DNA of 64,000 bases, from positions 22,763,167-22,827,166 of the forward strand of contig OY987246.1 in NCBI GenBank assembly GCA_963920765.1. Reading direction: 5' to 3'. Positions 42,251-46,234 of the stretch are shown in pieces; positions within the stretch are counted from its first letter, which is position 1, and each line of letters begins with the position of its first letter. A program made the translations under genes and the position numbers. The notes beneath the pieces are model-generated. The model ran no database searches, was not told the origin of the DNA, and saw nothing but the letters and a program-made list of their open reading frames with translations. Source of the stretch: Ulota crispa. Taxonomy: Eukaryota > Streptophyta > Bryopsida > Orthotrichales > Orthotrichaceae.

Positions 42251-46234
<3,984 letters not shown>

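Follow-up and report, generated by a model that had tools for sequence, protein, structure and literature searches.

We analysed a 64,000-nucleotide stretch of the Ulota crispa genome, hereafter the window, which contains an intact alpha-tubulin gene with asparagine at residue 254 in place of the catalytic glutamate. The gene belongs to a clade of six sequences that share Asn254, and the window copy is under protein-level constraint. GTP hydrolysis at the Glu254 site drives dynamic instability, and the glutamate is close to universal. We consider it probable that the gene represents a working alpha-tubulin isotype, so far seen in mosses, which does without the GTPase-activating glutamate and which, by analogy with an engineered human protein, would make, or dope, long-lived microtubules.

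Gene structure and codon 254

The gene runs along the minus strand from 46234 to 42251. Its five exons, each recovered as a tblastn piece, are separated by introns that are all GT-AG and join into a 1353-nt frame of 450 residues and a stop. Exon 1 (46142..46234, residues 1-31) opens with the MREC start, exon 2 (45798..46032, residues 32-109) keeps Lys40 and Glu71, and exon 3 (44534..44904, residues 110-233) holds a diverged stretch at residues 167-204. Exon 4 (43237..43621, residues 234-361) carries the T7 loop, helix H8 and Asn254, while exon 5 (42251..42519, residues 362-450) encodes an acidic tail with a terminal Tyr, followed by the stop codon. Joining the exons confirmed two claims of an earlier sequence-only reading: that codon 254 (43559..43561, minus strand, running from plus-strand position 43561 to 43559) is AAC, giving Asn where the catalytic Glu is expected, and that the rest of the 450-residue gene is intact. 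A tblastn search with the window protein found no second tubulin gene in the 64-kb window.

Pfam recognises both a Tubulin domain (PF00091, 203.6 bits against a cut-off of 33) and a Tubulin_C domain (PF03953, 167.4 bits against 26.6). The best 60 of 172 matching solved chains are all named tubulin or alpha-tubulin, and the top chain is an alpha-tubulin whose best stretch covers window residues 1-449. Around residue 254 the alignment to the five best solved chains is gapless, and all five have Glu there. By descent, as judged from the tree described below, the protein is an alpha-tubulin minus its catalytic Glu254 feature.

A change from GAA or GAG to AAC requires two base substitutions, from which it had been argued that a single read error was unlikely. 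The argument holds, and a sequencing error is made very unlikely by five other sequences that carry the same Asn; sequencing or assembly error as the source of Asn254 was therefore rejected. More broadly, an artefact of the assembly or of the gene model could draw on the fact that the window is known from one assembly, but the two-base change and the five other records of Asn254 leave this extremely improbable.

Distribution of Asn254

Carriers of Asn254 were sought among 222 proteins fetched from the matches listed in protein searches, a sample that is biased towards the queries and whose entries stand for clusters at 90% identity, so that some members may be concealed. With the full-length window protein as query, 7963 candidates were scored and the best 120 listed. 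The highest identity among the matches listed belonged to P0084 (M758_5G044600 of Ceratodon purpureus, 451 residues), at 92% by search and 91.1% by alignment, and the same best 120 also held P0108 (KC19_9G101900), likewise from C. purpureus. A query with residues 160-262 of P0084 (7237 candidates, best 120 listed) added P0129 (jgi), P0130 and P0131 (lgn). All five proteins carry Asn254 in the same context and score 218-223 bits in the latter search, where the Glu254 moss proteins P0135 and P0136 score 190 and 189 bits, respectively. Using P0136 as the query gave no further Asn254 carrier among the matches listed. The sequence-only reading had suggested looking for Asn254 alpha-tubulins in other species, and they were found in five of the 222 proteins, two of them from C. 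purpureus.

Across the 222 fetched proteins the motif around residue 254 occurs 238 times, with Glu in 232 cases, Asn in five and Gly in one; seven proteins are without the motif, and no Asn254 was found outside the clade. For comparison we used as background the fetched proteins of 400-475 residues with the Asn254 carriers set aside (n = 58; 63 of the 222 with the five carriers), the remaining 159 being excluded by length. The earlier description of Glu254 as essentially invariant stands for this background, where all 58 rows have Glu, but has exceptions, since coccidian alpha3-tubulins are without it in the accessible text of a published survey (PMC10056924) and one fragment among the length-excluded proteins has Gly. 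This fragment, P0180 (334 residues, source ‘merc’, cluster of 42 sequences), reads NVDVTGFQTNL and is possibly a second natural loss, or possibly an error.

The four Marchantia alpha-tubulins that were fetched all have Glu254, and the matches listed in the protein searches included no Asn254 protein from Physcomitrium patens. A literature search over titles and abstract openings, with most subscription papers outside its reach, found no moss or plant E254N tubulin.

Phylogeny and origin

A tree was computed for the window protein and 41 sequences chosen from the 222 proteins, over 451 columns. The six Asn254 rows form a single clade (support 100/99), which joins the Glu254 paralogs P0135 and P0136 in a moss group (98/96). 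The clade shares both Asn254 and Met250, and masking columns 250 and 254 in all 42 rows left its support at 100/99 and that of the moss group at 99/96. One change of state is enough to explain residue 254 on the tree. As a single supported clade beside Glu254 moss paralogs, these sequences fit one origin of Asn254 and its subsequent retention in mosses. Because genes of a known moss share the Asn, the window gene looks kept and specialised rather than erroneous.

The nearest rows outside the clade are P0135 (Ceratodon M758_1G323400) and P0136 (Physcomitrium). They have a SMC...SGAVVEPYN stretch in common with the Asn254 clade but differ from it in keeping Glu254, Val250, Met313, Cys316 and Ser379. 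The H1-S2 loops (residues 37-50) of P0136 (isoform X2) and P0135 are altered, and the Asn254 rows have the standard loop.

Within the clade, the window copy is the first branch, and the other five group together with support that is not strong (92/71, or 93/75 after masking). At 0.10, its end branch is 1.6 to 3.7 times as long as the paths that lead from that node to the five relatives, which sum to 0.027-0.062 on the tree.

Constraint on the window copy

The window protein differs from the agreement of the other five at 30 positions, which we compared with random mutation of the gene up to 30 changes in 1000 neutral runs. Background conservation reaches 98% or more at 131 of the 450 sites. 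One of the 30 differences falls on these sites, where the neutral runs averaged 8.6 and never had fewer than 3. The differences have a mean BLOSUM62 score of 0.9 against -0.48 in the neutral runs (maximum 0.47). At seven of the 30 positions the window holds the background consensus, so the change there probably took place in the lineage of the other five. Without these seven, one of 23 differences lies at the sites of at least 98% conservation; the runs averaged 6.7, and 3 of the 1000 came down this far. At the sites of at least 90% the figure is five of 23, compared with 14.6 in the runs, none of which was that low. On this comparison the window protein is constrained, because its differences avoid near-invariant sites. 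The stop-free frame says little here, as 23% of the neutral runs were also without stops.

These results bear on whether the gene could be a decaying duplicate, a spare alpha-tubulin whose catalytic residue disappeared once it had been duplicated and which, seldom used, is heading towards a pseudogene. The longer branch of the window copy would suit such a history, and for coccidian alpha2 and alpha3 the accessible text of the survey likewise considers decay (PMC10056924). Set against it are the intact frame and splice sites (with the caveat on stop-free runs just given), the avoidance of invariant sites, and the closeness of the relatives, four of which are 97-99% identical to one another, with the fifth, a fragment, 95-98% identical to them. 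We regard decay as unlikely. An outright pseudogene is disfavoured by the same intact frame and splice sites and by the placement of the differences. Relaxed constraint, which had been offered as one interpretation of the gene, is disfavoured as the whole story; constraint on the window copy may nonetheless be partly relaxed, for which its longer end branch leaves room. Retention of Asn254 in six sequences is not, on its own, strong evidence of selection at site 254, because in so short a clade a site free of constraint could also have remained as it was.

Changes accompanying Asn254

The substitutions T191C, D199E, V250M, E254N, M313I, C316A and S379A are fixed in the six Asn254 rows and absent from P0135 and P0136, and they fall at sites that are 93-100% conserved in the background. 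Asp251 of the activating loop and the final Tyr are kept in all six rows, and Lys40 in all five that reach position 40. The accessible text of a structural study describes a region that shifts together with Glu254 upon pironetin binding (PMC4931326); V250, a T7-loop residue, and C316, a residue of strand S8, both belong to it. We therefore take V250M and C316A as signs of a pocket change, and the clade looks like one with a remodelled catalytic pocket, though this clustering was noticed after the fact.

Such changes could also be read as compensatory, with hydrolysis restored through V250M, through the changes in S8 or by a beta-tubulin partner, so that the isotype behaves ordinarily. That several changes on the stem branch co-occur near the same pocket, and that Asp251 is kept, would agree with this. 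However, no clade-fixed change places a carboxylate at or beside 254, and human E254A, E254N and E254Q are all reported as hydrolysis-deficient in the accessible parts of two studies (PMC8764682, PMC11893814). Restored catalysis thus seems very unlikely, somewhat more so than decay.

The divergence of residues 167-204, also pointed out in the sequence-only reading, is real, but part of it is older than Asn254. Eleven positions were counted in this stretch: four (168, 170, 172 and 179) are common to at least one Glu254 moss paralog, three (191, 193 and 199) are fixed across the Asn254 rows, and four (167, 169, 202 and 204) are particular to the window. A joint divergence of the stretch with Asn254 is thus only partly right.

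Genomic surroundings

Introns 2, 3 and 4 of the tubulin gene contain long fold-back (MITE-like) elements at 42627-43218, 43702-44009, 44021-44432 and 44980-45656 (with 45030-45328 nested), comprising eight arm pairs of 44-106 nt with 75-95% complementarity. Relatives of the two intron-3 fold-backs occur at 20139-20441, 21484-21595, 27956-28548, 33641-33880 and 54351-54795.

On the plus strand, pieces of a DNA topoisomerase II-like gene lie at 6353-14318 (DNA_topoisoIV, 132 bits; HATPase_c, 22.5 bits, below its cut-off), the outer ones having no Pfam match and being placed by eye. Pieces of a CDC20/Fizzy-type WD40 gene lie at 20920-22982, also on the plus strand, each alone below the family cut-off. 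As clues to function, these two neighbours showed no link to the tubulin gene. A perfect 23-nt tandem repeat of 7.4 copies is found at 33173-33343, and 4 kb beyond it, at 37411-37511, are 4.4 copies of a unit that by eye is its reverse complement. A 22-nt tandem repeat at 54763-55075 (14.2 copies, 98% matches) contains AAACCCTAA, which we take to be telomere-like. Rfam at gathering cut-offs gave no match in the window, and ARAGORN found no tRNA in it.

Engineered and natural tubulins without Glu254

Engineered human alpha-tubulin E254N has the identical substitution at the identical residue (PMC8764682, PMC11893814; both seen in part). In the accessible text of the first study, human E254N microtubules show no GTP hydrolysis by HPLC and no catastrophes, and grow at about 10 nm/s compared with 15-30 for wild type (PMC8764682). 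Their lattice is expanded, with a rise of 83.45 Å and a positive twist, and they bind EB3 weakly, compacting when saturated with it (PMC8764682). The human protein is a laboratory mutant, whereas the moss Asn254 is natural, clade-wide and accompanied by T191C, D199E, V250M, M313I, C316A and S379A.

If the human E254N behaviour carries over, a dimer with Asn254 alpha-tubulin that adds to a protofilament would supply the interface but not the catalytic carboxylate, and the GTP on the beta-tubulin below would stay unsplit for that reason. Microtubules made mostly of such tubulin would be GTP lattices without catastrophe, and those with some of it would contain GTP islands that resist or rescue shrinkage. 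A specialised tubulin had been among the earlier proposals, and the six-sequence clade, the constraint on the window copy and the human biochemistry, as far as accessible (PMC8764682), agree with it; the very stable microtubules, or the dominant regulator of dynamics, that the reading also proposed would be an extrapolation from the human protein.

Some loss of Glu254 in nature is already known, in a different form and lineage, since coccidian alpha3-tubulins are without it. The accessible text of the survey describes these isotypes (Toxoplasma TGME49_231400 and homologs in several genera) as having lost both D251 (to T) and E254 (to Q or H), with an insert in the start motif and a very long tail (PMC10056924). 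Its authors suggest that these isotypes can stimulate hydrolysis less well or not at all, and that they either serve microtubules that are non-dynamic or persist for long, in bradyzoites, sporozoites or microgametes, or are decaying (PMC10056924). The window copy resembles them in being a natural Glu254-less isotype but differs in keeping D251, the MREC start, an ordinary tail and a length of 450 residues. The moss and coccidian losses are likely of independent origin.

Expression and candidate site of use

Hydrolysis-dead tubulin harms dividing cells, as dominant lethal yeast mutants illustrate. Since such a tubulin should be harmful there, the moss isotype would probably be confined to cells that need long-lived arrays, and spermatids, with their spline and axonemes, are our best guess, held with less confidence. 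Bryophyte sperm have a microtubule spline and two flagella, as described in the accessible parts of two papers (PMC6290024, PMC8128824), which is why we rank sperm first and consider a role in the spline or axoneme plausible. The Marchantia antheridium-specific alpha-tubulin MpTUA5 (PMC6290024, accessible text) is a male-organ bryophyte isotype and so resembles the role guessed here; it was compared by description only, and the four fetched Marchantia alpha-tubulins keep Glu254, unlike the window copy. Physcomitrium patens makes a sperm spline, according to the accessible text of PMC8128824, and gave no Asn254 protein among the matches listed, so moss sperm as a whole may be able to do without the isotype.

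The heptamer AACCGTC occurs on the plus strand at 46586..46592, some 350 bases ahead of the start codon, as one of 2 such sites in 64 kb (0.05 expected in 1.5 kb), and we take it to resemble a DUO1-type sperm MYB site. As a cue to sperm expression it is a weak lead, because it was one of three nested patterns tried.

P0129 (414 residues, contig of 1976 nt) and P0131 (416 residues, longest contig 1928 nt) run unbroken through 109/110, 233/234 and 361/362, the sites of the 893-, 912- and 717-nt introns in the window gene. Contigs of less than 2 kb that read through three intron positions are probably spliced mRNA, although intron-aware gene calling would lead to the same picture, and both are known from protein sequence alone. 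P0129 and P0131 begin near residue 36, just inside exon 2, with exon 1 missing, and P0129 is short of two residues in an otherwise conserved stretch. The alignment of P0108 is without about 17 residues from 110 onward, a hint that the Ceratodon gene has an intron at this position too.

Transcript-like sequences in bulk collections could instead point to a low-dose regulator, expressed widely but weakly, in which Asn254 tubulin is a dopant and leftover lattice GTP tunes rescue in cortical or phragmoplast arrays, perhaps under drying stress. The rest of the window protein aligns with ordinary alpha-tubulins, and human E254Q, which is also hydrolysis-deficient, co-assembles with E254N at about the mixing ratio in the accessible text of PMC11893814. 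Those published mosaics, however, combine two dead mutants rather than a mutant with wild type (PMC11893814), and we consider a general dopant possible but doubtful.

Returning to the isotype for long-lived microtubules, its fullest form would be that mosses evolved, a single time, a dedicated alpha-tubulin dead for GTPase activation, with a remodelled pocket, for permanently GTP-bound, catastrophe-free microtubules in a particular structure such as the sperm spline or axoneme. This we put forward tentatively, as an extrapolation from the human mutant that is rather less than probable. If true, nature would have arrived by itself at the GTP-cap mimic built in structural biology. A plant lineage that keeps a Glu254-less copy would suggest that cells can put hydrolysis-dead tubulin to purposeful use, and, with mosses being genetically tractable, it would offer a natural setting in which to study the effects of GTP islands and GTP lattices in vivo.
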